Shown: in pieces, positions 2,957-42,203 of the stretch
Numbering within the stretch: position 1 is the stretch's first letter
Layout: the number at the start of each line of letters is the position of its first letter
IMG/VR virus record: IMGVR_UViG_3300005253_000060
Location: 1 to 42,203 of that record
Strand: one strand, 5' to 3'
DNA: 42,203 nucleotides
From: a virus
Notes under the pieces: model-generated
Databases searched by the model: none
What the model was told of the DNA's origin: nothing
What the model saw: the letters and a program-made list of their open reading frames with translations, nothing else
Translations under genes and position numbers: made by a program

Positions 2957-3384
2957 CTTGCGAGCTCAAACTCCAATACCCACACTTCGGGATTGTCGTC
3001 CCACCGCTGGCCATTGAGTGTATGGATGCCATCCCAAAGCATCTCGAATTGCTGCCTTAGATCTGAAACCGCGGCGTGTTCTCGATGATAGGTGACCAAC
3101 CCTTCAGATGTGCAATCCTCCGCCGAGATTTCTTGGAGCTGTTCTTTGCGAATGGCAATCAAGCGAATCCGTCCGAGAGATGATTTGCCGCGACCAGACT
3201 GAACGGCATAGTCCTTTCCGACTTCCCAACGCAATCGGTTCCGCGCATCCGTGACTAATGCGGTCGGATAAAACGACCCGGCAGCTCCTGGCTGCGCAAA
3301 TGCTATATCGCCAGGCTTGACTAGTCTTCGGGTTTGAGTTTTCGTACTATCAAGAACGTATCGGTGAGTCTCTTTGAAGATCAT
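2953..3384 (-). CDS. ASCH-domain protein, 143 aa
   Basis: The pattern is typical of phage ASCH proteins: MIFKETHRYVLDSTKTQTRR at the start, YAVQSGRGKSSLGRIRL in the middle (about residues 59-75), EEISAEDC-like ISAEDCTSEGL, and a final NPEVWVLEFEL. ASCH is a small beta-barrel fold thought to bind RNA or modified nucleobases. GGAGG stands 5 nt before the ATG. It sits 14 nt after sbcC and overlaps the nuclease gene. A modified-base reader or hydrolase role is possible but cannot be shown from sequence. Confidence 0.8.
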   Translation of the reverse strand: MIFKETHRYVLDSTKTQTRRLVKPGDIAFAQPGAAGSFYPTALVTDARNRLRWEVGKDYAVQSGRGKSSLGRIRLIAIRKEQLQEISAEDCTSEGLVTYHREHAAVSDLRQQFEMLWDGIHTLNGQRWDDNPEVWVLEFELAR

Positions 3385-3398
3385 TCAAGCCTCCATCG

Positions 3399-5489
3399 TT
3401 ACGCGATCCTGAACTGCGATCCATCTGGGTGCTTCTCGATCTCGATCCGGTCCGGGAAGGCGTCCTTGAGCTCCTCGATGTGGGTGATGACCAGGATCCG
3501 CTCGAAGTCGTCCTGAATGCTGTGGATGGCGGCGACTAGATGATCGCGACCCTGCGCGTCCTGGCTGCCGAATCCTTCGTCGATGAACAGGCTCCGGAGC
3601 TGGGCGCCTGCGCGCCTGGCCAGCAATCTCGAGAGCGCGATGCGCAATGCGAAATCGATGCGGAAGCTTTCACCGCCACTGTAGAGCTCGTAGGGACGGC
3701 TGCCGAGCTCGTCGGAGATCACGATGTCAAGCGCTTCGCGCGTCTCGCCAGTCTTGATTTCGCGCTGGGTTTCAATGCGCACGTGCATTCGGCCGTCGGT
3801 CATGCGGCTGAGCAGCTCATTGGCAGATCGCTCGAGCTCTGGAACCGCGGTCTCAATGATCATGGCCGGCACGCCTGTCTTGCTAAATGCCTTCCGGAGC
3901 TCGTCGTAAATCCCTAGATCGTCGGCCGTCTCGTCTCGGGAGTCCCGCAGATCCTTCTGGCTTCCCTCCAATTGCTCAAGCGCTTCCAGCTTCTGCTTGG
4001 TGCTGCCGACCCGCTGATCCGCGGTGCGGCGTTCCTTTCGCAACCGCTCGAGATCTCCCTCACTCAGCGATCTCTTTCCGAGCAGTTCTCTAGCCTCGCT
4101 AATCTTCTCGTTCAGCTCATCCGTTTCCTCCGACGCTACCGTCTGCTCAACTTTCCACTGTTGCATTTGGACTATCAGTGAGTCCATGCGTTCCCGCGCC
4201 TCGCCCGCGCGCTCGAGCGTGACCTGCAACTCGCCGACCTGCTTCTCGAGCTTCGAGCGGCCCTTGAGATCCCGGTCAAGTTTCTTCTTTTGGCTGTCGA
4301 GCTCGGCCAGCTGCTGATCGAATTCATCAATCCGGATCTGATTGGCCCGGCGATCGTCGCGCAAGCCTTGTAACTCATGTTCGATCTCTGCCGCGACCTC
4401 GGCCCGGTGCTCCTCGGTCAATGGTTCACCGCAGGTCGGACAGACCGGCTCAGTCGCTGATTGGAGTGTGGCCATCCGTTCCTTCAAGGGCGCGGCGGCA
4501 GGTGCCATGGCTTTATTGGCGCCCTTCAAAGATCCGATCTCCTCAGCTATTGCAGCTCGTCGTGTGAGCAACTCTTCGCGCTCTACCTCGAGCGGCGCCA
4601 GGCGACCGAGCCGGTCCTCTACGTCTTGCATCGCTGTCCGAATAGCATCCTCATCTGCCTGTGCCTCGGCCTTATCGCGCTGCTTTTCTGCGTCCGCGAT
4701 CTGCTTTTTCAAAGCTCTGATCTTCGTCGTGAGTCTGGCCAATTGATCGCTCAAGTCCGAAAGGGTGTCGTCGGCTTTCTTCAGGCTCGCCCATTCCTTC
4801 TCAGCGGCCTGCAGTTCTTCGTCAATTTCGCCGGCGCTAACCTCCGCGATGGCTAGTTCATCTTCAAGATCATCCCGCTTTGCGAGCTCGGTCTCGATCT
4901 CTGCGAGTTTCGAGTCAAGCCGGGAGAGCTCCGACTTCGCCATGGCGACGCGTTTCTTGGCGCGGTCCTCATAGTCCTCCCAGATCGAGAGCCCGAGAAT
5001 GTTGCCCAGGATCTGCTTACGCTGAGAGGGGGTCTTGGTCGTGAACTCATCGGCGCGGCCTTGAGCCAGCATGGCGGAGTTGATGAACGTGTCGTAGTCC
5101 AGGTGCAGCAGGTCGTCGATCTTGGATTGCGTTTCTTTGATAGTGGCGCCGGAGAGGCCTTGCCAATCTCCGGCACCGTTGGATGATTGCAGTTCGAGCA
5201 ATGACGCGCCGCGCTTGCCAGCTTTGCGCTGACGGATTACGCGGTAGTGGGCGCCGTCCTGCCGGAATACCAGTGCGACGCGCATATTGTCCTGCCCCTG
5301 GTGGATCAGCTCGTCCGCTGAATTGGATCGAGCCTTGCCCCAGAGCGACCATGTGATCGCGTCTAAGATTGAAGACTTGCCGGCGCCGTTGGGCCCAGCC
5401 AGGCAGGCCACATGGATACCATTCAGGACCAGCGGATCCGGATCCCGATAGGCCAGGAAGTTCTGAAGTTCTAACTCTTCGGGGATCAC
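3399..5489 (-). CDS. sbcC: SbcC/Rad50-type DNA repair ATPase
   Basis: A 696-aa SMC-like ATPase. Walker A is AGPNGAGKSS (residues 31-40). Two coiled-coil arms, about 180-345 and 355-560, flank a zinc hook CPTC (Cys350, Cys353). The ABC signature YSGGESFR and Walker B LFIDEGFGSQD are near the C-terminus, followed by the switch-His motif ITHIEEL. With SbcD it forms an ATP-driven nuclease acting on DNA ends, hairpins and protein-blocked ends. The arms are shorter than in bacterial SbcC (about 1,000 aa), nearer the size of T4 gp46. It starts at GTG 5489, overlapping the previous stop as GTGA. Confidence 0.95.
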   Translation of the reverse strand: MIPEELELQNFLAYRDPDPLVLNGIHVACLAGPNGAGKSSILDAITWSLWGKARSNSADELIHQGQDNMRVALVFRQDGAHYRVIRQRKAGKRGASLLELQSSNGAGDWQGLSGATIKETQSKIDDLLHLDYDTFINSAMLAQGRADEFTTKTPSQRKQILGNILGLSIWEDYEDRAKKRVAMAKSELSRLDSKLAEIETELAKRDDLEDELAIAEVSAGEIDEELQAAEKEWASLKKADDTLSDLSDQLARLTTKIRALKKQIADAEKQRDKAEAQADEDAIRTAMQDVEDRLGRLAPLEVEREELLTRRAAIAEEIGSLKGANKAMAPAAAPLKERMATLQSATEPVCPTCGEPLTEEHRAEVAAEIEHELQGLRDDRRANQIRIDEFDQQLAELDSQKKKLDRDLKGRSKLEKQVGELQVTLERAGEARERMDSLIVQMQQWKVEQTVASEETDELNEKISEARELLGKRSLSEGDLERLRKERRTADQRVGSTKQKLEALEQLEGSQKDLRDSRDETADDLGIYDELRKAFSKTGVPAMIIETAVPELERSANELLSRMTDGRMHVRIETQREIKTGETREALDIVISDELGSRPYELYSGGESFRIDFALRIALSRLLARRAGAQLRSLFIDEGFGSQDAQGRDHLVAAIHSIQDDFERILVITHIEELKDAFPDRIEIEKHPDGSQFRIA

Positions 5490-5857
5490 CGGGCGGCGAT
5501 CTCGAATTCCTGTAATTGGCCATACATGGCATTCACATATTCCTTTGGTATTTGATAATGATCAGGATCAGCTCCAACTTCAGAGGCATTTCCGCAAATG
5601 CTTGTGCCTTGCTCGACCAGTGCTTTCAGCTTGGTCAAGATATTAGAAACGCGCTCAGTTGGGCCATCGCCTAGCTCGATCGGTGGAAGTGGTAGACGTT
5701 GGATTTCTGTCTCGCATTCATCCAGCTTGGCTTCGAGAGCGGCGAAATCTCGAATAATCAAGTTCAAGTCTCCAGTACCAAGCTCGATCGATCCACCGCT
5801 CTTCTGTGCTCTGCGCTCAATCCGTCTCAAAAATATGAGTCCAGCGCTCTCGCTCAT
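5486..5857 (-). CDS. Unknown 123-aa protein encoded between sbcD and sbcC
   Basis: The protein is mostly helical with heptad-like Leu/Ile spacing around residues 25-55 and 65-90. It has no membrane segment or catalytic motif. Its start overlaps the sbcD stop (ATGA) and its stop overlaps the sbcC start (GTGA), so all three proteins should be made in similar amounts. Position between the two subunits of a complex suggests a third subunit or regulator of SbcCD (inference); no known family is recognised. Confidence 0.65.
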   Translation of the reverse strand: MSESAGLIFLRRIERRAQKSGGSIELGTGDLNLIIRDFAALEAKLDECETEIQRLPLPPIELGDGPTERVSNILTKLKALVEQGTSICGNASEVGADPDHYQIPKEYVNAMYGQLQEFEIAAR

Positions 5858-7065
5858 AGCAATAACTCCTCCGCCCGCTCGACCAGCACTTCAATCCGAT
5901 CCGGGCTCATATCCTTCGACTGAAAATAGGTCTCCAATAATTGCAGTGGGGTGAGGGTCTCAACCGCCAGATCTCCGAGGCGCGTGCGTGCTTCTTCCTC
6001 GATCTCTCGGATGATGCTCAGGCTGGATACGTTCGGAAGCGATGCTTGGATCTCCCGGTCGTTGAGCGCCGGAGACTGATCGGGGCGCATGGTGAAAATG
6101 ATCCGTACTACGGCCTCATCGAACGCCAACTCTGGCAGCATCTCAAGAAACGATTCGGTCGGATCATCGATTTCGGCCGCGGTCGTGTCGATCCGGATCG
6201 TGACAAATTCGCGGGCCTGGACCGGGACAAACGACCAGGATGTCTTACCGTGCTCAAGCTCGACCCAGCAGAAGCCCTTCTCTTCCTCCTGCTCACCGAA
6301 GTCGATCCGCTCGAGAGAGCCGCTATAGACAACGGGCGGCTGTTCGCTGAGGACCTGATGTTTATGAATGTGACCGAGGGCAACGTAATCCCAGGCTGGA
6401 TCCGCAAGCACATCGAGATTGACGGCGACGTCGCGGCCGATCATGACCGCGCGCTCCGATCCGAACACAGCCTGGTCCACAGTGAAATGGCCGGCCAGGA
6501 CGCGGGGCATATCATGTTCGTCGGCCTGGCGGGCCAGGTCCTTGACGATCGCGGTCACGGCCTCGCGCAATGCGAGCTCGAGCTCCTCGATCGACTTGCC
6601 CTGATTGTCTCTATTGGAGAGCAAGCGGTTCCGCATGGGATACGGGAGCCAGGCTAGATAGACAGGCCCACTGCTCGTCTCAACGATCTGCCCTTCGGGT
6701 CGATTGCCGAGGATTACACCTGGAACATCGAGCGCGCCAAAGATGTCGATGCTGTTGGCGCGCGATGCGATGCCCGGGGCGTCGTGATTGCCCACGAGTA
6801 GAAGGGTGGGGACTTCATCTGCCAGGCGCTTGATGCGGCGGGCGAACTCCCGCAAAAGCGTAGGGTTCGGATCACGTTTGTGGAAAGCATCTCCCGCAAA
6901 GACCACCAGGTCGGCCTTTTCGTTGAGTGCGTAGTCAACGACCTCATCAAGGCGTTCAAGGAAATCGCCGACGCGGGTCGATAGGCCGGTGGCAGGATCG
7001 GGTCGGCTATGACTTTCGACGCCCAGGTGAAGGTCGGCAAAATGCAGCATCTTTATTCCTGACAT
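5854..7065 (-). CDS. sbcD: SbcD/Mre11-type nuclease
   Basis: A calcineurin-like metallophosphoesterase with every Mre11 motif in order: ADLHLG near the start, FAGDAFHKRD at about residue 60, GNHD at about residue 95, AGHF near 195 and GHIHKHQ near 230. These supply the two-metal site for 3'-5' exonuclease and endonuclease cleavage. The C-terminal 130 residues fit the capping and SbcC-binding region. The start is uncertain: a TTG at 7071 overlaps the recT stop, the ATG at 7065 is used here, and an ATG at 7050 has the better-spaced AGGA. Partner of the sbcC product. Confidence 0.94.
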   Translation of the reverse strand: MSGIKMLHFADLHLGVESHSRPDPATGLSTRVGDFLERLDEVVDYALNEKADLVVFAGDAFHKRDPNPTLLREFARRIKRLADEVPTLLLVGNHDAPGIASRANSIDIFGALDVPGVILGNRPEGQIVETSSGPVYLAWLPYPMRNRLLSNRDNQGKSIEELELALREAVTAIVKDLARQADEHDMPRVLAGHFTVDQAVFGSERAVMIGRDVAVNLDVLADPAWDYVALGHIHKHQVLSEQPPVVYSGSLERIDFGEQEEEKGFCWVELEHGKTSWSFVPVQAREFVTIRIDTTAAEIDDPTESFLEMLPELAFDEAVVRIIFTMRPDQSPALNDREIQASLPNVSSLSIIREIEEEARTRLGDLAVETLTPLQLLETYFQSKDMSPDRIEVLVERAEELLL

Positions 7066-7067
7066 GA

Positions 7068-8177
7068 TCAATCGGCCTTGCCCATAGCTTTGGCCATCGC
7101 CATCGCTTCCGCTGCGGCCTCGACATCCTTGAGAAGGATCCGGCCTTCCTTGCCCGTACCCTGGATCGCTCTCAATTGAATGTCGTGCTTGCCTGCGAAC
7201 TCTATTGCGCCGTCGGTAGCATCGATCGACGACTCCGGAGCCAGGCCATCTAGCGGGCCATACTTGTTGATAATGAAAATTAGTGAATCTGCCCAGGTGC
7301 TGAGTTCCTTTTTAATGGCCTGCCCCTCGTCGGTATCGACGCCGAAGTGATTGGCGATTAGCCAGAATTGCGTGGAGCCGATCTCGTAGGGTTTCTTCGT
7401 CGCTAGATCGCGAGCTTCCTTCAGCATGTCGAGGGCGCTAGTATCTTCCGCAGTTTCCTCTTCCTTACCGTCCTCGCTACCGAAGAGAGTCTCCGTGGCC
7501 TCGGTCGCCTCCTCCTCGCCATTGGATCCATTCTCGGGATCTTCTTCCAGCGTCCACTCGCCCGCGATGATGGGGCCGGTTGGTTCACTCGGGACGGCAA
7601 ACGGAAGATCGAAGCGCCGCTTCAAGGCATCAGCCTCAGATCGTTTCATGGCTACCTGGATTGGATCCATTCGAGTCGACTCGCCGTCCTTGATGTATCC
7701 GACGCCGGTCGAGTAGGGTCGCTTACCGAGCACTTCCGGGATGATCTCTACTGGCACACCATCTTCTTTCAATCTCTTCCAACCGTCCGAATAGGTCCGG
7801 ATCGTTTCACTGTCGCGGATGATGCACTTGAAGGCCAGGGCCTTGTCTGGGATCATGAACAGGTTACGTTCGTCGGGATCCGTGATTTCTAGAAACTCAG
7901 TCCAGAAGCTGCCGTCGATCTGCTGGCGGGCAGCTTTGCGCAATCCCTTGATGCCAGCCATGAGACCGGATCCAGGGATGTACCAGATCTCGCCGTTGAA
8001 TGGATCGAGGCCGTGCGCGATGGCGCCCTGGGCGAGGGCGAGTGCTTCATTCTCATCGAGCCTCTTGCCGCCCGGTGCCATTAGCTGGACGCGCCTGGCG
8101 ATCTCGCGGAGCTCCTTACGTTCGCCCCATGGCGCAATTCGGGATTCGTTCGTGGGAACTATGGCTGTCTTATCCAT
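7068..8177 (-). CDS. recT: RecT-type single-strand annealing protein with an E3-binding-like C-terminal domain
   Basis: Residues 20-215 fit the RecT/Redβ family: a helical start, then AHGLDPFNGEIWYIPG (55-69) and GLMAGIKGLRKAA (71-83). Such proteins coat single-stranded DNA and anneal it to complementary strands. An acidic linker (about 215-250) leads to a second helical stretch, and residues 318-357 resemble the peripheral-subunit (E3) binding fold (ATDGAIEF…IQGTGKEGRILLKDVEAA). The family usually ends soon after the annealing core, so this 369-aa form is extended. It overlaps the first operon gene by 8 nt and is next to sbcD, forming an annealing-plus-nuclease pair. Confidence 0.85.
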   Translation of the reverse strand: MDKTAIVPTNESRIAPWGERKELREIARRVQLMAPGGKRLDENEALALAQGAIAHGLDPFNGEIWYIPGSGLMAGIKGLRKAARQQIDGSFWTEFLEITDPDERNLFMIPDKALAFKCIIRDSETIRTYSDGWKRLKEDGVPVEIIPEVLGKRPYSTGVGYIKDGESTRMDPIQVAMKRSEADALKRRFDLPFAVPSEPTGPIIAGEWTLEEDPENGSNGEEEATEATETLFGSEDGKEEETAEDTSALDMLKEARDLATKKPYEIGSTQFWLIANHFGVDTDEGQAIKKELSTWADSLIFIINKYGPLDGLAPESSIDATDGAIEFAGKHDIQLRAIQGTGKEGRILLKDVEAAAEAMAMAKAMGKAD

Positions 8178-9691: not shown

Positions 9692-10621
9692 TTACTTGAC
9701 TCCCATGATTCTGGACATTGGGCTGTAGGGCTCAAAGTCCATCGGAGTGAGAGCCTGTGAGTAGCGCTCCACCTCCTTCACGGATCTCCAGCGACCGGCG
9801 AGTTGTACTAGCCGAGTAGGCGCACCGCCCTGCAAACTCAACGTGGCGAAGCTCCTACGAAAGTCGTGCGGGGAAACCAATCCAATTCCAGACTCCTTTC
9901 CTAGATGTCGGAGGATCGCACCCAGCCCGTTTCGCGTGAGCGAGGTTCCGGGCTTGTTTCCTCCTACGGATACGAAGACGGTGGAAGCGCGGGCATAGCT
10001 CTCCCTCACCGCGAGCCAGTTCGCCATTGCCGCCTGCGTGTAACGGCCAAACACCGCACCGCCGATACGACCTCCCTTTATGCGCACAACCAGCGATTGA
10101 GCTTCAAGATCAAAGTGCGCCAGCTCTAGCCGACAGATTTCCGAAGCTCTCAATCCCGTGTCGAGCAAGAGACTGATGAGGGCGAGGTCTCGGACGCCTT
10201 TAGGCTGGCTGGTATCCAGGTGACCGAGCAATTGATCCACCTGGGCCACGTTCAACGTGCGTTGAGGGGTGGGGTGGCGCTTCGGGAAGGGGATTGTTTC
10301 TGCGGGGTTGTCCTGGCCAATGCACCATCTGAAGAACAGCTTTAGGGCACAGATGGCGACGTGCTGAGTGGCGGGGCTCAAGTTTCTAGCTCGTATCCAG
10401 TCTCGGAGGTCCTCGGTGTTGACCAGATGCGGATCATGAATGTCAAAGTTTCCAAGCCACATGATCGCGTTGTAGAGGTGGCGTTGGTAGTGCTCGATCG
10501 TTCGTTTAGAAAGGGTGGATTCTTTCTCTAATATGAAACTTTCAAGCAAATCAAACATCTCCTTTTCCTCACTAGTTGGGGACATCTCTTCACCTTCCTT
10601 GGCGGGCTGCGGACTCGGCAT
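9692..10621 (-). CDS. int: Tyrosine recombinase (phage integrase)
   Basis: A 309-aa protein with an N-terminal SAM-like core-binding domain (about 20-110) and a catalytic domain carrying Arg158 (TGLRASE), Lys182 (IKGGR), His252 and Arg255 (SPHDFRRSFAT), Trp278 in the second-His position (GRWRS) and nucleophile Tyr287 (VERYSQ). The set is complete. It catalyses site-specific integration and excision between attP and host attB. There is no arm-binding N-terminal domain of lambda type, so it resembles the simpler XerD-like integrases. A second start at 10585 also has a good ribosome-binding site. It is transcribed away from the replication block from its own promoter. Confidence 0.93.
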   Translation of the reverse strand: MPSPQPAKEGEEMSPTSEEKEMFDLLESFILEKESTLSKRTIEHYQRHLYNAIMWLGNFDIHDPHLVNTEDLRDWIRARNLSPATQHVAICALKLFFRWCIGQDNPAETIPFPKRHPTPQRTLNVAQVDQLLGHLDTSQPKGVRDLALISLLLDTGLRASEICRLELAHFDLEAQSLVVRIKGGRIGGAVFGRYTQAAMANWLAVRESYARASTVFVSVGGNKPGTSLTRNGLGAILRHLGKESGIGLVSPHDFRRSFATLSLQGGAPTRLVQLAGRWRSVKEVERYSQALTPMDFEPYSPMSRIMGVK

Positions 10622-13971: not shown

Positions 13972-14150
13972 CCGAGATCGCGCTTACCGAGGCGTACGAT
14001 CGCCTGGTGGCCATTGCGCGAGCGAACGCCAAGAACAGTGCGCTGTTGGTGCTCTATGCAGAGGTTTTGAGGAAGCACGTTGCGGAGCTCGAGACCGAGG
14101 TTGAGGAATTACGGCGGAGGCTAACTCTGAATGAATCAAATACCGATTGA
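13968..14150 (+). CDS. Small coiled-coil protein, 60 aa
   Basis: A short helical protein; residues 30-52 (YAEVLRKHVAELETEVEEL) have clear heptad spacing. It starts in an ATGA overlap with the zinc-ribbon gene and its last 20 nt overlap the ParB-like gene in a different frame. Function unknown. Confidence 0.55.
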   Translation: MTEIALTEAYDRLVAIARANAKNSALLVLYAEVLRKHVAELETEVEELRRRLTLNESNTD

Positions 14151-15021
14151 TCACGTGGCGCCGGATCCGGACCAGCCGCGGCAAACCTTCAGCAACGAAT
14201 CGCTGGAGGAGCTCGCAGCATCGATCCGCGAACATGGCGTAATCCAGCCAATCGTCGTTGAGCCCAATGGTTCCGGCACGTACGTCATTCAAGCCGGCGA
14301 GAGACGCTGGCGCGCCGCTCAGATCGCCGGCCTAACGGAGATCCCGGCTTTCGTCGGGAGCTCGACGCCAGACACCGAGGATCGCTTTGTTCGGGCGCTT
14401 GTCGAGAATCTGCAGCGGGAAGATTTGAACCCGATTGATGAGGGCTATGCTTACGCGCGGCTGCAGGAAGCCGGGTTGAGCAATATCAAGATCGTCAGGT
14501 TGTGTGGTGTTTCCCCTCCCCGAGTTGCCGCGCGCCTGATCCTGCTCAAGCTGGATCCGAAGATACAGCAGCTGGTCGCCGCCGGCGAGCTGTCCAAATC
14601 TCCTGATGTGGCCAAAGCACTGCTGAGTATTCCCGATCAGGATGCTCGCGTGGAGTACGCGAAGCGGTCCGCTAAACGTGGATTAACTATCAAGGGGATC
14701 GTTGCCGGCTGCCGGCGGATCATCACCTTGCTGGAGGCGGATGCGCTTGAGAGGGGGAAGACCCCATCGCTCAATATAGCAACCCGGCGCCGGGCTTCCG
14801 AGTGGAATCTCGTCAAGCAGATCGAGCTGGACCTGGAAGGCCGCATGCCTCCCTGGCAGACTGTAGAGCTGGCGGCAGAAAAGACCTGTCAGGGCTGCTC
14901 GCTGCTGGATATGGCCTCGATCGTCGTTTGTGGCAACTGTCCGGGGGTTGAGCTCGTGGCCCACATGATCGAACTGGAGGCCAACCGTGTCCGAAAACGA
15001 CATGCTCGAGCAGCTGATTGA
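14131..15021 (+). CDS. ParB/Spo0J-like protein with C-terminal zinc motif
   Basis: A 296-aa protein. Residues 3-100 are the ParB N-terminal (CTPase-like) domain with PDPDQPRQTF, HGVIQPIVV, GERRWRAAQIAG and VENLQREDLNPI motifs. A helix-turn-helix follows (SNIKIVRLCGVSPPRVAARL). The C-terminal 60 residues carry CQGC and CGNC, a probable zinc site unlike the usual ParB dimerisation domain. No ParA partner is seen. Stand-alone phage ParB-like proteins may act as regulators or nucleases rather than in partition. Confidence 0.85.
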   Translation: MNQIPIDHVAPDPDQPRQTFSNESLEELAASIREHGVIQPIVVEPNGSGTYVIQAGERRWRAAQIAGLTEIPAFVGSSTPDTEDRFVRALVENLQREDLNPIDEGYAYARLQEAGLSNIKIVRLCGVSPPRVAARLILLKLDPKIQQLVAAGELSKSPDVAKALLSIPDQDARVEYAKRSAKRGLTIKGIVAGCRRIITLLEADALERGKTPSLNIATRRRASEWNLVKQIELDLEGRMPPWQTVELAAEKTCQGCSLLDMASIVVCGNCPGVELVAHMIELEANRVRKRHARAAD

Positions 15022-21542: not shown

Positions 21543-21620
21543 TATCAAACCAATCTATCCGCCTCGTGGCGCGTGTACTTAGTCACTGGCCGGGAGCCCA
21601 TAGGCTCGCGGCCTTTTTTT
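21533..21620 (+). ncRNA. Predicted ~88-nt small RNA or attenuated leader
   Basis: Bounded by a near-consensus promoter and an intrinsic terminator. It is predicted to hold two hairpins: a tetraloop stem CGCC-TCGT-GGCG at 21561-21572 and the terminator stem. It contains no start codon with a ribosome-binding site. It may be a discrete small RNA, or the default short product of a promoter whose readthrough into the protease and capsid genes needs an antiterminator, like lambda pR'. Confidence 0.55.
21588..21620 (+). terminator. Strong intrinsic terminator before the protease gene
   Basis: GGCCG-G-GAGCC pairs with GGCTC-G-CGGCC around the loop CATA and is followed by seven T (21614-21620). It ends only 8 nt before the protease ATG, leaving no room for an ordinary ribosome-binding site. 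Confidence 0.9.
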
Positions 21621-21628
21621 ATGCCACT

Positions 21629-23005
21629 ATGAAAAACGACTTCTTTCTTGTCACCGAGCTGGAGACGGAGACACTCACCGAGGGCAAGACCTTTGACGGT
21701 CTTGTCGCTGGCGACTTCGTTGATATGCACGGTCGGCGGATCCTCGTCGAGGAAGACGAGCTCGAGGATTACGTAGCCAATACCCAGTCTGCAATCGAAG
21801 CGACCGAGTCTGAGAGTGGCGAGATCGTCGGGCTGCCGATCGACGTCTACGACCACGACAAGGAGGACGCCGCGGGTTGGATCGTCGGCGCCAGTCTATC
21901 GGACGGGGTCATCCGTCTGGATCCCAAATGGACAGCACTCGGGAAAGATCTGATCGAGGAAGGGATCAGGCGGTTCTTCAGCGCCACATTCAACACTGAC
22001 CAGCAGGTCATCCTCGGAGGCACGCTCACTAATTGGCCGGCCACCCGCGACGACGAGGGCCGGGTCATGCTCCGGCCGATCGAACTCTCGACGTCGATGT
22101 TCTCAGTCGAGCGCGAGCTGGCAGAGGAACCCGAGAGCACGGAAGACCGGCTCAGTCGCATGCAGGCTGACTTTCGCGATCAGTTTCCGTATTTCGACAA
22201 CCGGCCTTATATGTGGATCGAAGATACCTTCGATGAGGAAAGCTTCGTCATCGTCGACGAAGACGCCCGGCATTACCGAGTCGAGTTCTCGGAGAATGAC
22301 GACGGCAATTTTGATTTCATTGATCGGACCGAATGGGTGGAAGTCAAGCAGACCTGGATCGACGCGGCCAAGAAGGCCGCGCGTGACATCATCTTGGGCG
22401 GACTAAGCCGAAGGAAACACGATAAGCATGGAGGTAGGAATATGCCAAAAGACAAGCTGACACTGGACGACCTCAGCCCCGAGGAAAAGAACGAGCTGGC
22501 GCTCGGCGTGCTGGCGGAGCTCGGTGGCGAGAAGTACAACCCCGCTGACTTGGGTGCGCAAGTCGATCTAATGGTCGATCAGCGTGCCCGCAAGATCGTC
22601 GCCGAGGAAACCGCCAAGGCCGAGCGCGAGCGGGGCATTGCCGAATTCGCATCCCGCATCACCGGGGGCGACGAAAAGACCCCGGCCGGCCTGCCAGTCA
22701 ACAAGGAGCAGCTCGAGGCATTCCTCGGTTCGTTGGATAACGACCAGCGCGAAGCGGCCACCGCCATTTTCGATGAGATCGTGACCAAGGGCGGGCTGGT
22801 TGAGTTCACCGAGGACGGTCACAGCCGCAAGGAACGGGGCGGATCCCCACTGCCGGAAGAGATGGCGGAGCAGCTGCGGACCTACCTGGCCGAGAGCAAG
22901 GATGCCTCGGTGGCCGAGTTCTTCGAGGTCAACGAGGACATGCTCGGGCCGATGACGGACTACAACCTGAGCGAGTTCAAGGAAAAGGAAGGTTCCGATG
23001 GCTGA
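21629..23005 (+). CDS. Prohead protease-scaffold fusion, Mu gpI-like
   Basis: A 458-aa protein. Residues 1-170 resemble the Mu-type head maturation protease (GLPIDVYDHDKEDAAGWIVG, IEEGIRRFFSATF, ILGGTLTNWPATRD, MLRPIELSTSMF). Residues 272-458 are an acidic helical scaffold. The start at 21629 lacks a Shine-Dalgarno and follows the T-tract of a terminator by 8 nt; the frame stays open back to a GTG at 21566, which also lacks one. An internal start at 22442 should give free scaffold. Cleavage of scaffold and self during head maturation is inferred from the family. Confidence 0.8.
   Translation: MKNDFFLVTELETETLTEGKTFDGLVAGDFVDMHGRRILVEEDELEDYVANTQSAIEATESESGEIVGLPIDVYDHDKEDAAGWIVGASLSDGVIRLDPKWTALGKDLIEEGIRRFFSATFNTDQQVILGGTLTNWPATRDDEGRVMLRPIELSTSMFSVERELAEEPESTEDRLSRMQADFRDQFPYFDNRPYMWIEDTFDEESFVIVDEDARHYRVEFSENDDGNFDFIDRTEWVEVKQTWIDAAKKAARDIILGGLSRRKHDKHGGRNMPKDKLTLDDLSPEEKNELALGVLAELGGEKYNPADLGAQVDLMVDQRARKIVAEETAKAERERGIAEFASRITGGDEKTPAGLPVNKEQLEAFLGSLDNDQREAATAIFDEIVTKGGLVEFTEDGHSRKERGGSPLPEEMAEQLRTYLAESKDASVAEFFEVNEDMLGPMTDYNLSEFKEKEGSDG
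22442..23005 (+). CDS. Nested scaffold protein, in-frame internal start
   Basis: The ATG at 22442 lies in the frame of the protease gene and has a strong GGAGGT 6 nt upstream, far better than the full-length start. The 187-aa product begins MPKDKLTLDDLSPEEKNELA and is acidic and helical with Gly/Glu-rich stretches, as expected for scaffold. This is the lambda C/Nu3 and Mu I/Z arrangement: one frame makes a few protease fusions and many free scaffolds. Confidence 0.75.
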   Translation: MPKDKLTLDDLSPEEKNELALGVLAELGGEKYNPADLGAQVDLMVDQRARKIVAEETAKAERERGIAEFASRITGGDEKTPAGLPVNKEQLEAFLGSLDNDQREAATAIFDEIVTKGGLVEFTEDGHSRKERGGSPLPEEMAEQLRTYLAESKDASVAEFFEVNEDMLGPMTDYNLSEFKEKEGSDG

Positions 23006-23477: not shown

Positions 23478-24374
23478 ATGATTTCAGGTAACGTACCGAA
23501 ACACCTGGTCGTGGGCGCCCGCACGGGCTTCCTAAACGGATTGCGCCGCCGAGAGTACGAATGGCAGCGCATCGCAGCGACCTTCAACATGGGGGCGGTG
23601 AGTGAGCAGCTCGTCGACATCGGAGCCGCACCTATGCCCAAAGAGTCCAAGGGTGGCATGACCATCCAGGACTTCATCGAGCGGGAGATGACGCTAAAGC
23701 CGACCGATTGGGACATCACAGTCTGGATCTCGCATAACGCGGTGAAGGACGATCAGACCGGCGACCTGGACCGGAGAGTGAGAGCATCCGGTGAGAACTT
23801 CCAGAAGCACCTGAACGCCCGCGTGTTCACCGCACTCAACGCTGGCGACGGCACGACCTTCGGTTTGGCCTATGACGGACAGGACTTCTTCGACAGCGAT
23901 CATGTTGACGCGGGAGCGGATTACAGCACCGCCCAGGACAACGAGGGTGCGCTCGTGCTCGATCTCAATAACTTCGAGACGAGCCTTGTCGCAGCGCAAA
24001 AGTTCCGCGACGACCAGGGCCAATTCACGAGCTTCAACTATGACCTGATCGTGGTTTCGCCTGAGCTCCAGCGCGAGGCGGCTAATATCGCCGAGAACCC
24101 CCAGGATTATGCGACGGCGAATCGGGCAGTCAACCCATTCGCTTCCGGGCTGGACTTCATCGTAGCTCCGGAGATGGATGCAACGGCCTACATTTTGATT
24201 GCGTCAAACGAATCCCATAAGCCGATGATCGTGGGCATGAAAGAACAGCCGAACCTTCAGCACGCCTGGTTCGATCCGGACCAGCCGGAGGGCGGATACT
24301 TCTTCTTCAAGTTCTATGCTCGCTACGAAGTGGTATACGGCGACTGGAGACTGGCTTACCAGGGAAACACTTAG
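23478..24374 (+). CDS. Major capsid protein, Mu gpT-like
   Basis: A 298-aa protein of the Mu gpT type: FIEREMTLKPTDWDITVWIS, the central FGLAYDGQDFFDSDHVD (matching the GxxFF…H motif of the family), FRDDQGQF…LIVVSPELQREA, and a C-terminal FKFYARYEVVYGDWRLAY. It should form the T-number lattice with an HK97-type fold. AGGAGG precedes the ATG. It is placed directly after scaffold and decoration genes. Confidence 0.88.
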   Translation: MISGNVPKHLVVGARTGFLNGLRRREYEWQRIAATFNMGAVSEQLVDIGAAPMPKESKGGMTIQDFIEREMTLKPTDWDITVWISHNAVKDDQTGDLDRRVRASGENFQKHLNARVFTALNAGDGTTFGLAYDGQDFFDSDHVDAGADYSTAQDNEGALVLDLNNFETSLVAAQKFRDDQGQFTSFNYDLIVVSPELQREAANIAENPQDYATANRAVNPFASGLDFIVAPEMDATAYILIASNESHKPMIVGMKEQPNLQHAWFDPDQPEGGYFFFKFYARYEVVYGDWRLAYQGNT

Positions 24375-24380
24375 GGTTGA

Positions 24381-24893
24381 TTGGAGATCCGAGCTTACTC
24401 AACTAGAGCGTGGCGGATTTCGACCTGGCGCACGACAGGCGCATGGCCGATCACGTCCCCGCCACGCTCACCGATCGATCACCCGCTAAACGATCTGCTA
24501 GATGCGGACGTGATCTACATCAGACTGCACGGGTTGGGCGACCAGCCCTACCTATACGGCGATCCGGGTCTTCCAACGGCCCTCTCAGCCAGGCAGATCC
24601 GAGAGACCGGGCTGACTGGTCAGGTGATTTTCCTGGAGGGGTGTTTCGGAGCTCAGATCGCCGATGCGTTTCTGGAGGCGGGAGCTACAACAGTGGTCGG
24701 GAATAGCGGCATCACTTGGGGCCGGCGCTTTTTCTTAGGGCCAGCGCAGGTGGTCGGCAAGACCTGGCTGAAAGCTTTCGAGGCGGGCCTTTCCCCGAGG
24801 AAGGCACTCGATGCCGCCCTAGCCGAGGTCCGCAAGAAGTGGGGCTCGCGCTTCGAGGTCGGGTGGCGAATTCAGATAAGGAGTGAAGCATGA
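24381..24893 (+). CDS. CHAT-type caspase-like peptidase, 170 aa
   Basis: Residues 43-155 match the CHAT (caspase-like) fold: DVIYIRLHGLGD with His50-Gly51, QVIFLEGCFG with Cys88, then AFLEAGATTVVGNS (97-109), a helix-rich FFLGPAQVVGKTWLKAFEAG and SPRKALDAALAEV. His50 and Cys88 are the expected catalytic dyad. There is no TPR or sensor domain, only about 40 N-terminal residues. The start is the TTG at 24381. Its end overlaps the lipoprotein gene by 4 nt. A CHAT peptidase between the capsid and connector genes is not a standard head component. Confidence 0.7.
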   Translation: MEIRAYSTRAWRISTWRTTGAWPITSPPRSPIDHPLNDLLDADVIYIRLHGLGDQPYLYGDPGLPTALSARQIRETGLTGQVIFLEGCFGAQIADAFLEAGATTVVGNSGITWGRRFFLGPAQVVGKTWLKAFEAGLSPRKALDAALAEVRKKWGSRFEVGWRIQIRSEA

Positions 24894-25945
24894 CTAAGCG
24901 ATTAAATCTGGCGATTATCCTCTCGATGATCCTTGTCTTCGCATTGGGTGGTTGTCAATTGCTCGATCCGCTGCAGGCGCAAGGCGTCACGAACCTCGAC
25001 CAGTTGGTCTTGGGCGGGGTGGCGGCAGCCGATGCGGGCGTCACCACCGAGACTTTCGAGGTCGCCATCAGCTCTCCGGTCGACACGACAGGCACCAACA
25101 TACACGACGCGGTGACCATCGACATCGCGGTGGGCAACTCGACCGGCGGGACCAATAGCATAGTGGGCCTGCAGGTAGACGCCATCACCGATGACGCGCA
25201 AGTGGTGACGACCGCCATACAGGTGGGTGACGAATGGAATTACGCGCTAGATGTTTCGGCTCCCATCGTCTCGACAGCTTCGACCTGGTATGACGACTTC
25301 CTCGGTGACACTGCACCTGCCGAACTATTTGAGATTTCCGGTTCTGACGCGCAAGCCGTACAGGCACTTGTGTCGGAGCAATATGGGGTCTATCAGCTTA
25401 CCTCCTCGGATGCCGGAACTGGCTGTGCAGCCGATTGTGAGGCTTTCAACCTGGGACTCGAATGGCAGGCCGATCAGGGTTCACTAGTTTTTGAGACAAG
25501 GCTGCACCTTGACGGCGACATTCTGACGGCCGGGATCTGCGCTGGCTTCTCCGATGACGAATCCACAGTAGAGATGCCTTTCGGGATCTCCGGCACAACC
25601 ATCACATCTACCGTCGTTGATGGGGTGATGTTCTGCTTCGATACGGATGCGACCACAGACGAATGGTACTTCTTGGGAGTGGACACCAATACCGATGCGA
25701 CCGGCAATGCAATCACGGGAACGGCGCCGGCAGCGGACACCTATCAGGTGTTACGGATCGAAGTCGATTCGGCCGGAGCAGTGTGCCGCGGGTACATCGA
25801 CGGAACGCTGGTGATCACTCTGACGGCCAACTGCGTGACTAATACCGTTGCGCTGGCACCCGGTATATGGGTTGACAGCGCGTCCAACGCCGCCAGTCAT
25901 GTGTTCGACGTCGACTACCTATACGTAAGCGCCGACCGCGATTGA
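24890..25945 (+). CDS. Lipoprotein with LamG-like domain, partner of the CHAT peptidase gene
   Basis: A 351-aa protein starting with a lipoprotein signal: MTKRLNLAII, a hydrophobic core and lipobox LGGC, giving lipidated Cys22. Residues 30-125 are Thr/Val/Asp-rich repeats; 135-351 look like a concanavalin/LamG jelly roll (FETRLHLDGDILTAGICAGF, YQVLRIEVDSAGAVCRGYID, a final VFDVDYLYVS). Export to the cell surface is expected, so it is either a prophage surface protein or, if unprocessed, a virion fibre. It is translationally coupled to the CHAT gene and followed by a terminator. Confidence 0.65.
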   Translation: MTKRLNLAIILSMILVFALGGCQLLDPLQAQGVTNLDQLVLGGVAAADAGVTTETFEVAISSPVDTTGTNIHDAVTIDIAVGNSTGGTNSIVGLQVDAITDDAQVVTTAIQVGDEWNYALDVSAPIVSTASTWYDDFLGDTAPAELFEISGSDAQAVQALVSEQYGVYQLTSSDAGTGCAADCEAFNLGLEWQADQGSLVFETRLHLDGDILTAGICAGFSDDESTVEMPFGISGTTITSTVVDGVMFCFDTDATTDEWYFLGVDTNTDATGNAITGTAPAADTYQVLRIEVDSAGAVCRGYIDGTLVITLTANCVTNTVALAPGIWVDSASNAASHVFDVDYLYVSADRD

Positions 25946-25985: not shown

Positions 25986-26027
25986 AATGCGGGGCGGAGC
26001 CCTAGACCCCGCCCCGCATTGATTTTT
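25986..26027 (+). terminator. Intrinsic terminator after the CHAT-lipoprotein pair
   Basis: A perfect 12-bp stem (AATGCGGGGCGG paired with CCGCCCCGCATT) around an 11-nt loop, then GA and five T. It ends the transcript carrying the peptidase and lipoprotein genes. The next gene begins 12 nt later with its own AGGAGG. Confidence 0.9.
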
Positions 26028-38392: not shown

Positions 38393-39724
38393 ATGAAACG
38401 CATAGGCTCAGGCATTGCCGCTGTCTTATTGATTGGGGCATTCTTCGCTCTTTCAACAAGAGCACAGGGTCCGAGCTTGCCTCCCGGCGAATATGACTTA
38501 GAGGCGGGGCAGTATATGTTCAATCAGCACCCCGAATCATTGCTCAGTCTTTTGGTGATGACGCTAACGCCCGTTCCTTCTGAGACACCTACTACCACAG
38601 ATACGCCGGTGCCTCCAACGAATACCCCCATACCTCCGAGTGCAACACTTATTTCTCCATCCGGGCATGATTCCGAGGTTTATCACGGACTATGGAACGG
38701 GCCGCTGGAACCCTTCGCAGGCGCGCCCTCCTGTCAATCTATGGGTGATACCAACTGTCACTGGAACCACACGCACAACGCTGACCCCTCCAGGTTGGAC
38801 TCTATCTTTGGACCAGTTGGAGCTTTATATGGCGGGCAAACGATTAGCTACCAGTGGCAGACGGGCACAGCGCCCAATCTCGAGAATCAGGTCAAACACG
38901 AAGGCTATAAATGGATGGTCCGCCAAGATGGGGCGGACGGCGACTGCCTCTTCTATGCAGGCCAAAACAATAATGCCGTGCATTGCGTTACAGACTTCCG
39001 AATCCAACAGCATGTAGTTGGTGGGCAGGTAGGTGTGCTTGTTCGGTTCCATTCCTACTGGGTTGAGATGCGCGTTTGTACGCTAGACCAATCTGTCTGT
39101 GGGATTGTCAAGACGGGCGGCCATAGCGATTTCGGTCTTTTACAGGTTGAAAGATACAGTAACTACGTGCCTCTTCCGGGCGACCCCCCCGAGTTTGCGG
39201 ACTGCACTCCGCAACAGTGTGCTTACCGGGGTCATAAATCGTCTCGTTTCTTCATCGATTTCAATCCATCACCTGCGCATAATGATCCACTTTGGTTTAA
39301 CGGCAGAGGATTATTTGGCTTCAATCAAATATCATTCTTTGCTTTTATCACTGAGGATGACTGGGGCGGAATTGACCCTGATGATCCCGCCGGTCCTGAA
39401 CACTTCCTCTGTCCAGATTGGCAGTGTAAGTTCAACCACTCGACACTTTTCGCATTTGAAGTTTATGCGACTGTTTCATCTGCCTTTGATCCTGATGGGG
39501 ATGGCATCGCAGACTTCTCAGGGTTCACAGACCGAAAAGGAAACGTTGTTGCGGATTGTGCGCCCCTTGGCCCCGATTGCGTACCCCTAGAGATTGCGGG
39601 AGTCCCCGTGGGGAACGCGGCATATGGCCCGAGCGGAAGATTCCAGTTCAATATGGGCTTCATCCCATTCGAGGAATACGACGTTTCGCCTCCGGGCGAA
39701 TGGTGGATTGAGTATCCGAACTGA
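38393..39724 (+). CDS. Secreted protein with Thr/Pro linker, host-like
   Basis: A 443-aa protein. Signal peptide MKRIGSGIAAVLLIGAFFAL with a likely cut after STRAQ. A linker at about 55-85 (TPVPSETPTTTDTPVPPTNT) leads to a Cys-rich globular domain with Asp/His/Trp motifs (HWNHTHNAD) and a calcium-loop-like DPDGDGIADFSG near residue 365. The linker style is typical of Chloroflexota exported proteins. It is probably a captured host gene used for lysogenic conversion or host contact; a tail fibre would not carry a signal peptide. Confidence 0.6.
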   Translation: MKRIGSGIAAVLLIGAFFALSTRAQGPSLPPGEYDLEAGQYMFNQHPESLLSLLVMTLTPVPSETPTTTDTPVPPTNTPIPPSATLISPSGHDSEVYHGLWNGPLEPFAGAPSCQSMGDTNCHWNHTHNADPSRLDSIFGPVGALYGGQTISYQWQTGTAPNLENQVKHEGYKWMVRQDGADGDCLFYAGQNNNAVHCVTDFRIQQHVVGGQVGVLVRFHSYWVEMRVCTLDQSVCGIVKTGGHSDFGLLQVERYSNYVPLPGDPPEFADCTPQQCAYRGHKSSRFFIDFNPSPAHNDPLWFNGRGLFGFNQISFFAFITEDDWGGIDPDDPAGPEHFLCPDWQCKFNHSTLFAFEVYATVSSAFDPDGDGIADFSGFTDRKGNVVADCAPLGPDCVPLEIAGVPVGNAAYGPSGRFQFNMGFIPFEEYDVSPPGEWWIEYPN

Positions 39725-41322
39725 TGGCTAGAGTATCACCGGATGTAAATTTCGAGTATTTCCATCACGCTAACAATCAAATAACGGCCGCGCCTTTGAC
39801 GATGAGCGCGTGGATGAAGGACACGCGCGATCAAACCTTTATCGCGTTGCACGGGATCATATCGATTTCCGATTTCGATAGCGTGAGCGGCGACGGATGG
39901 CGGTTCACCCTGGTCCAAAACGCATCGGACACCACTCACAATTTCCAGTTCATAGTCGAGAACGCTGGCACCGAAACGAAAGCCGACAGGGCGGAGACAT
40001 CGAAAACTATAAATGGTGTGTGGGTGCATATATGTGGCGTAAGTCGCGCGGCTGATAACAGCGACCTTTCAGTATGGGTTGACGGAGCCGAAACCACAGC
40101 CACGCCATCGGCGAACACGCCAGCAACCGCCGTTGATCGCGTTACTGTTATGGCCTACTGGAGAAATAGTATTGTTCAATCAAGCTCATTCCAAGGACAC
40201 GTAGCTGAACCCGCCTTCTGGGATAGAGCTTTGTCGGACGCAGAAGTAATCGCCTTATCAAATGGTTACAGTCCGACGTTTTTCAAGAGGGGACTAGAGC
40301 ATTATGCGCCGTTCATTCGTGATCAGGACAGAGACTTAATTACTGGTGATGCTTTTACCGTAGCTGGGAGCCCGACAGTTGCCGATCATCCTCCGATCAT
40401 TTACCCCGCGCCGAAATTCTACATCATGGCTCCGCCAGCCGCGGGCGGCGTCACGGTCACGGTCCCGGTCGCCTCCCTCACGCTGACGGGCTTTGCACCG
40501 ACCGTCACGGTCTCCGATCATCAATCGGTCACGGTTCCGGTAGCCAGCCTCGCCCTCACCGGATTCGCGCCCACAGTTACCGCGACCGCGAATATCACGG
40601 TGGAAATTCCGGTCGCATCCCTGGCCCTGGCGGGGTTCGCCCCAACCGTCACAACCACGGCAAACATATCCATCGAAGTCCCGGTAGCGAGCCTGGCGCT
40701 GTCGGGGTTCGCGCCTACGGTAACGGCGACAGGTAATCAATCCGTCATTGTTCCAGTAGCCAGTCTCACACTGACCGGCTTCGCGCCTACGGTCACAGCC
40801 ACGGGCAACGTATCGATCGAAGTCCCGGTAGCATCGCTGGCGCTTGCCGGATTTGCCCCGACGGTCACGGCGACGGGCGATGTATCGATCACAGTCCCGG
40901 TTGCATCATTAGCTCTAGCGGGCTTTGCGCCGACCGTACAGACGCCGGTCACGATCACGATACCCGTCGCGTCGCTGACGCTGACGGGATTTGCGCCGAC
41001 TGTTCAAACTCCGGTCAGCGTAACGGTTCCAGTCGCCAGTCTCAGCCTATCGGGATTCGCGCCGATCGTAACAGCCACGGCCAACGTATCAGTAACCGTG
41101 CCGGTCGCCTCGCTCGCGCTGAGCGGATTCTCGCCGACAGTCACCGCAACAGGCAATGTGAGCGTTACGGTCCCGGTCGCCTCGCTGATATTGACCGGCT
41201 TCGCACCCACGATCGTCACACTGGCGGACGTGAGCGACGTAGACTTCGTACTCGATACCTGGGACGTAGAAAGCGTTTTAGATACCTGGAATGTGGAAAT
41301 TGTCCTAACAACGGAGAGCTGA
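39724..41322 (+). CDS. LamG-repeat fibre-like protein with 11 tandem repeats
   Basis: A 532-aa protein. Residues 5-190 form a LamG/concanavalin domain (MSAWMKDTRDQTFIALHGII, VWVDGAETTATPSANTPATA, VAEPAFWDRALSDAEVIALS). From about residue 243 come eleven near-identical repeats of 22-24 residues (VPVASLALTGFAPTV core). The C-terminus has a short repeat, VLDTWDVE then VLDTWNVE. No signal peptide. Probably a sugar-binding tail fibre or stalk. ATGA-type overlap (1 nt) with the secreted gene. Confidence 0.65.
   Translation: MARVSPDVNFEYFHHANNQITAAPLTMSAWMKDTRDQTFIALHGIISISDFDSVSGDGWRFTLVQNASDTTHNFQFIVENAGTETKADRAETSKTINGVWVHICGVSRAADNSDLSVWVDGAETTATPSANTPATAVDRVTVMAYWRNSIVQSSSFQGHVAEPAFWDRALSDAEVIALSNGYSPTFFKRGLEHYAPFIRDQDRDLITGDAFTVAGSPTVADHPPIIYPAPKFYIMAPPAAGGVTVTVPVASLTLTGFAPTVTVSDHQSVTVPVASLALTGFAPTVTATANITVEIPVASLALAGFAPTVTTTANISIEVPVASLALSGFAPTVTATGNQSVIVPVASLTLTGFAPTVTATGNVSIEVPVASLALAGFAPTVTATGDVSITVPVASLALAGFAPTVQTPVTITIPVASLTLTGFAPTVQTPVSVTVPVASLSLSGFAPIVTATANVSVTVPVASLALSGFSPTVTATGNVSVTVPVASLILTGFAPTIVTLADVSDVDFVLDTWDVESVLDTWNVEIVLTTES
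40450..41236 (+). repeat. Eleven coding tandem repeats, ~72 nt each
   Basis: Eleven units of 24 aa (nine) or 22 aa (units 7 and 8). VPVASL is kept in every copy apart from V/I at the first position, but the codons differ: the single Ser is written TCC, AGC, AGT, TCG or TCA in different units. The DNA repeats are thus far more diverged than the protein repeats. Confidence 0.9.
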
Positions 41323-41924: not shown

Positions 41925-42107
41925 GTGAACCCTCCCCTTCTCATCGCACCGTAAGCAGAACTCTTCTTCGGTTTTCCAAGTTGAAATCGTCATCCATTCG
42001 TGCCCAAATATAGCGCACCGAATTCGGGCAGCGATCATCGAAAGACTGAAGTAGATTCTCCCGATCTGGACGACCAAGAACACCGCCGCCGACATTGCGC
42101 GCATCAT
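41778..42107 (-). CDS. Zinc-motif protein with hydrophobic N-terminus, 109 aa
   Basis: Residues 3-28 are hydrophobic (AMSAAVFLVVQIGRIYFSLS). Residues 32-56 (CAIFGHEWMTISTW, then EFCLRC) resemble the short GHxW…CxRC motif of DUF1660-like phage proteins. After residue 61 the sequence changes to a soluble helical unit. An internal ATG at 41924 in the same frame has the repeated ribosome-binding cassette upstream, so two proteins may be made. ATGATG start, 7 nt after the cassette across the circle junction. Confidence 0.6.
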   Translation of the reverse strand: MMRAMSAAVFLVVQIGRIYFSLSMIAARIRCAIFGHEWMTISTWKTEEEFCLRCDEKGRVHMTQDKSPKTAEEAFREFHIAWFKLLEEIGNSTGAYKALNWLKRLFQKG

Positions 42108-42203
42108 ACGAATCTCCCCTTCTCATCCCTTCTGGCTTCTATTGTCTTCACCCAAATTGAATCTCGCCATAGCCCTGTCCATCTGCTCTATTGCATTCAC
42201 CAA
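42083..42203. repeat. Terminal direct repeat, right copy
   Basis: Identical to 1-121; see the left copy. Bases 42083-42107 encode the start of the zinc-motif gene and 42123-42203 the 3' part of the 70-aa gene, which is complete only at 41-253. Confidence 0.95.

Follow-up and report, generated by a model that had tools for sequence, protein, structure and literature searches.

A predicted caspase-like peptidase paired with a membrane-anchored, fibre-like protein near the capsid genes of uncultivated tailed phages

In bacteria, known caspase-fold peptidases serve in defence (CHAT) or as secreted virulence factors (gingipains). Clan CD, whose members share a His-Gly motif and the caspase fold and act as P1-specific endopeptidases, includes families C11, C13, C14, C25, C50, C80, C84 and C123 (PMC12445089). 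Phage lipoproteins encoded beside virion genes are represented by Cor of T1 and by Llp of T5, whose gene adjoins that of the receptor-binding protein and which binds the receptor FhuA and excludes superinfection (PMC9586334). The locus described here pairs a gene for a small peptidase, predicted to belong to clan CD, with a gene for an anchored, fibre-like protein. Llp and Cor are small proteins that function on their own, whereas the anchored partner is larger, fibre-like, sometimes held by a transmembrane (TM) segment, and always encoded beside a peptidase gene. No description of such a pair was found in the open-licence literature, in keeping with an earlier note on this DNA, whose author knew of no system of this exact form.

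Layout of the locus

The DNA analysed (the window) comprises 42,203 bases, of which bases 1-121 are identical to 42083-42203, a direct terminal repeat of 121 bases that would be expected of a complete genome, whether circular or terminally redundant. The head genes resemble those of Mu and include genes for a portal, an I-protein head protease (21566-23005) with a role in capsid maturation, and a major capsid protein of the Mu gpT family (23478-24374, + strand; Pfam PF10124, E 2.9e-24; PHROG 371) that is 92% identical to the capsid protein of a sister phage, L002 (a contig of 4,152 bases). Six nucleotides beyond the capsid stop codon, a TTG at 24381 opens the gene for a peptidase of 170 aa (24381-24893, + strand), whose stop codon overlaps the start codon of a lipoprotein gene (24890-25945, + strand; 351 aa) in an ATGA (24890-24893, + strand), as in translational coupling. 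L002 carries the same two genes 3' of its capsid gene. Its peptidase, 73% identical to that of the window, has the same N-terminus, read from an ATG, so that TTG 24381 is the correct start; the shared N-terminus also ruled out a frameshift inside the peptidase gene. With a dN/dS of ~0.09 at saturated synonymous sites (dS), the two peptidases are probably under purifying selection.

Downstream of the pair lies an intrinsic-terminator-like hairpin (25986-26027, + strand), in which inverted repeat arms at 25986-25997 and 26009-26020 form a perfect 12-bp stem around an 11-nt loop, followed by five T residues at 26023-26027. The window holds no other perfect stem of at least 12 bp that closes a short loop, and this hairpin (25986-26020) escaped a terminator scan because that scan allows loops of up to 8 nt. 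The earlier note had described the coordinates of the pair, its ATGA coupling and a perfect 12-bp-stem terminator closing it, all of which we recovered. In L002 a similar GC-rich hairpin is located at 3290-3332, between the capsid gene and the peptidase gene and not after the pair, such that GC-rich hairpins flank the two genes on opposite sides in the sister phages (5' in L002, 3' in the window). Elsewhere the window encodes a ParB protein (14131-15021; PF02195, HTH_ParB) in the same phage as a tyrosine integrase (9692-10621), as well as an SbcC/Rad50-like ATPase with a zinc hook and an Mre11/SbcD-like phosphoesterase (3399-7071, - strand).

Fold and family of the peptidase

Searched alone, the peptidase had no match in Pfam, NCBIfam or the sequences of the PDB and one insignificant match in PHROG, and single-sequence searches of INPHARED and PLSDB yielded nothing useful. 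AlphaFold2 modelled it with a pLDDT of 51 from two sequences; an alignment of 21 sequences raised this to 92.5 (pTM 0.90). The best Foldseek matches of the model were SAVED-CHAT (E 3e-7), TPR-CHAT and separase, VIA-align returned Z scores of 15.1 for DdvA, 14.9 for SAVED-CHAT, 14.5 for the gingipain RgpB, 13.7 for separase and 13.5 for TPR-CHAT, and caspase was also among the fold matches of the two programs. In the model, H50-G51 follows strand 44-48 and C88 follows strand 82-85, the arrangement of the catalytic dyad in clan CD. On the strength of this model, the ORF at 24381-24893 is predicted to encode a caspase-like clan CD cysteine peptidase. The earlier note had proposed such an enzyme and had named a structure prediction lacking the caspase-like fold as grounds for abandoning the proposal; the fold was instead predicted with high confidence.

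The residues His50 and Cys88, which the earlier note had singled out, are both present and both conserved. Across the 21 aligned phage peptidases L49, H50, G51, Q55, P56, Y59, G60, T66, A67, C88, A96 and G101 are invariant; the patterns used to find the sequences partly required the H, G, Q, P, Y and G, and never C88, T66, A67, A96 or G101. His-Gly and Cys are also retained in chromosomal relatives that had been found by a profile and not by a pattern. Clan CD folds can occur as pseudo-enzymes, and a peptidase fold that has given up catalysis might serve as a binding protein or assembly chaperone for the fibre. That His-Gly and Cys remain invariant, even though most phage peptidases share just 25-47% identity with that of the window, makes a non-catalytic role highly improbable.

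Assignment to a family relied on homology to larger proteins. The peptidase profile finds chromosomal proteins of Anaerolineae of ~550-990 aa, with E values down to 1.5e-24, several of which score above the cut-off for Peptidase_C25 and contain TPRs in addition. An hhalign comparison of the phage peptidases with these chromosomal C25 domains (99.8%, E 5.5e-28) extends over 150 columns and brings His and Cys into register. By this measure the phage peptidase is homologous to the C-terminal half of the Anaerolineae TPR + Peptidase_C25 proteins, a link to C25 that runs solely via the chromosomal intermediates, as none of 16 phage members matched the C25 model PF01364. In a tree, the phage and chromosomal sequences form two separate clades. 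Anaerolineae chromosomes (L060-L087) carry many large proteins of the TPR + Peptidase_C25 type.

The phage enzymes thus share with family C25 the 150-column homology, the aligned catalytic residues and the fold of RgpB, but at 160-190 aa they have neither the N-terminal half nor the TPR region, form their own clade and match no Pfam model. They are likewise similar in fold to the CHAT proteins SAVED-CHAT and TPR-CHAT (the Csx29 of Craspase). However, the peptidase is unmatched by the CHAT model PF12770 and has no TPR, SAVED domain or CRISPR partner; in place of an associated sensor or CRISPR effector, its neighbours are head and neck genes and an anchored fibre. The VIA-align scores do not decide between CHAT and C25. 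Because the peptidase is related to C25 proteins while matching no CHAT, C25 or PHROG model of its own, the label "C25-like, clan CD" is preferable to "CHAT", the family favoured by the earlier note.

The anchored partner and its conserved pairing

The search for related peptidases yielded 23 separate loci in phages or prophages. N-terminal patterns drawn from the closest pair were uninformative and the broad alignment contained no usable pattern stretch, and relatives were therefore sought in viral contigs with DNA patterns for the catalytic region, HG...QP[YF]xYG[DE], and confirmed by phmmer or a profile. Further relatives were drawn from genomes; many of the 30 pattern matches in genome contigs arose by chance, and only L027, L040 and L051 encode relatives. 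In every one of the 22 loci with a readable neighbourhood, the gene adjacent to the peptidase gene encodes an N-terminally anchored, fibre-like protein, with ~0.4 kb between the two genes in L098 and L102. The remaining locus, L005, is truncated by the contig end, where the last part of an apparently fibre-like protein is visible. By way of background, among the 251 ORFs that reach 120 aa in 16 of these loci, 22 have an anchored N-terminus, a figure that includes the partners; because the loci are related, we attach no probability to the pairing. A search for partners without a peptidase returned, in a small sample, five contigs, four of them already known to carry the peptidase and one ending before the neighbouring gene.

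The peptidase gene comes first in the window, L002, L008 and L105 and the partner gene in all other loci, including L011, which clusters with the peptidase-first clade. Since order within the pair swaps between lineages, the pair appears to have been retained and not simply frozen as an operon. The co-occurrence of peptidase and lipoprotein genes that the earlier note had proposed to look for in other phages exists as an anchored partner beside a peptidase, but the anchor is a TM segment rather than a lipobox in most of the others, and no support emerged for placing the peptidase in CHAT proper.

The lipoprotein of the window begins with a type II signal (...LVFALGGC) whose lipobox cysteine is Cys22, and its L002 equivalent has LVLAIALGGC, in line with the earlier reading of the second gene as encoding a lipoprotein. 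A lipobox is also present in L010, L011, L017, L019, L022, L090 and one L105 copy, and most remaining partners have an N-terminal TM anchor. L105 contains a tandem duplicate of the partner gene (7022-8015, - strand), one copy with a plain TM segment and the other with a lipobox, which are near-identical just past the anchor and suggest that the type of anchor is exchangeable; the window contains no second copy. Because lipobox and TM anchors interchange, even between these tandem copies, attachment itself appears to be the conserved feature. Beyond the anchor, most partners share a juxtamembrane motif, [LV]G[TV]T[NH][FL], which reads QGVTNLDQLVL in the window (comparison of partner N-termini places the codons for GVTNLDQLVLG at 24983-25015, + strand) and has no clear counterpart in L096 and L099.

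Outside this motif the partners, which range from roughly 150 to 625 aa, vary in sequence, and their ectodomains are fibre-like, beta-rich and variable. Phage_depo_C (PF25692) was detected at the C-terminus of five of ten scanned partners, four of them above the curated cut-off, and one partner matched tail-fibre and virion PHROGs. Several partners thus share their C-terminal domain with tailspike and fibre proteins containing Phage_depo_C, from which they differ in being anchored in the membrane N-terminally and in being encoded beside the capsid gene, where that gene was identified, and not in the tail module. A LamG-like domain, ascribed to the lipoprotein in the earlier note, was not confirmed, as the ORF at 24890-25945 matched no Pfam or PDB sequence and no LamG/ConA-like family. 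Laminin_G_3 is matched by two other proteins of the window. One product, of 532 aa (39724-41322), has an N-terminal Laminin_G_3 domain followed by ~12 repeats of 'VPVASLALTGFAPTVTATG', in which length variation is likely. A 443-aa protein (38393-39724) has a hydrophobic, signal-like N-terminus and no Pfam match and is apparently a second exported phage protein.

Position beside the capsid genes and possible roles

In six loci (the window, L105, L088, L024, L090 and L099) the pair lies directly 3' of the major capsid gene, and in the other readable loci it lies amid head and neck genes, with the capsid gene adjoining wherever it was identified. The capsid families themselves differ and include PHROG 371 (Mu gpT), PHROG 3990 (L096) and, in L004, types in which protease and capsid are fused. 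Bacterial assemblies contributed members from Anaerolineales (L040, L051 and G289, the last from a further genome chosen within that class) and one on a Desulforudis MAG contig, which might be a phage contig caught up in binning. No member was found among 50,697 records of isolated phages with the queries used. In the isolated, Mu-like Pseudomonas phage Spike, which has the same head operon order, the slot holds two short unknown genes and the pair is absent, consistent with the earlier view that neither gene is a standard head gene.

Could the peptidase nonetheless be a second head-maturation protease that acts on capsid or decoration proteins, with the anchored fibre not its substrate but either a fibre of the head or an assembly factor docked at the membrane? 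The location directly behind capsid genes of several families would be consistent with such a role. However, these phages already possess head protease genes or fused protease-capsid genes, and Spike does without both genes of the pair, and we therefore consider a role in virion maturation improbable. Status as a moron, put forward in the earlier note, is in turn doubtful: a terminator is present and Spike lacks the pair, but no promoter-like site for the pair alone rises above chance on the + strand of the window, and the position, which for a moron is expected to vary, stays close to the capsid genes across a diverse set of at least 23 phages. Considering that the pairing is kept while gene order swaps, and that the position is on the capsid side in several capsid families, the pair would best be described as a portable cassette of two genes that occurs in uncultivated tailed phages, and not as a one-off moron.

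The exclusion or abortive function raised in the earlier note can be considered in two forms. In the first, the peptidase would be a latent, CHAT-like conflict effector that kills or arrests the cell once the anchored fibre senses another phage, a role suggested by the nearest fold matches, among them SAVED-CHAT and TPR-CHAT as well as DdvA, a transmembrane anti-sigma factor. Yet the cytosolic part of the partner is a stub of few residues with nothing more to signal through, a sensor, TPR or nucleotide-binding domain is lacking, the genes are located in the late operon, and the PADLOC defence models returned a single weak match in one member (E 0.003), all of which make abortive infection quite improbable. 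In the second form, the anchored fibre would occupy or mask the phage's own receptor, late in infection or from a prophage, while the peptidase controls its exposure or strips it at lysis. Fibre or tailspike-type domains in the partners, lipid or TM anchoring retained across lineages, an integrase encoded in the window and the precedent of T5 Llp (PMC9586334) all point in this direction; on the other hand, Llp and Cor, both small, work without a protease, expression appears to be tied to the capsid genes, and a fixed capsid-proximal position is unusual for such a gene. Superinfection exclusion or surface display is thus conceivable, if on balance unlikely.

The reading we find most likely, although we hold it tentatively and at somewhat less than even chances, is that the peptidase is a dedicated processing enzyme of the fibre. 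The peptidase would be a pared-down clan CD cysteine endopeptidase of the cytosol that stems from, or resembles, the catalytic half of C25 proteins; a lipobox or one N-terminal TM segment would fix its fibre-like partner in the membrane, with the fibre outside. Made late, together with the capsid, the pair would meet as enzyme and precursor, with cleavage near the juxtamembrane [LV]G[TV]T[NH][FL] segment; part of the fibre would then be freed from its anchor for virion mounting or shedding, and the remainder would stay on the cell surface. An enzyme encoded with its own membrane-anchored substrate fits a pairing kept despite swapped order, interchanging anchors and a conserved juxtamembrane motif, and fibre processing for the virion or the surface fits the late, capsid-proximal position. 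The suggestion in the earlier note that the lipoprotein is the substrate of the peptidase likewise gains support from the conserved co-occurrence. The main difficulty is one of topology: because a signal peptide is absent from the peptidase and the fibre is predicted to be outside, the membrane would separate enzyme and ectodomain, unless cutting precedes export or occurs at lysis. Also counting against processing are the Mu-like I head protease already present and the two partners without a clear motif. More speculatively, and with a probability we put clearly on the low side, the caspase-fold peptidase might determine whether the fibre remains attached to the infected cell or is freed for the virion, one fibre gene thereby supplying both cell surface and particle.

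If true, a compact phage branch that travels with an anchored fibre, in the capsid region and among unrelated capsids, would represent a new use of the caspase fold. The pair is a testable enzyme-substrate candidate in phages of almost uncultured hosts, Anaerolineae and others.
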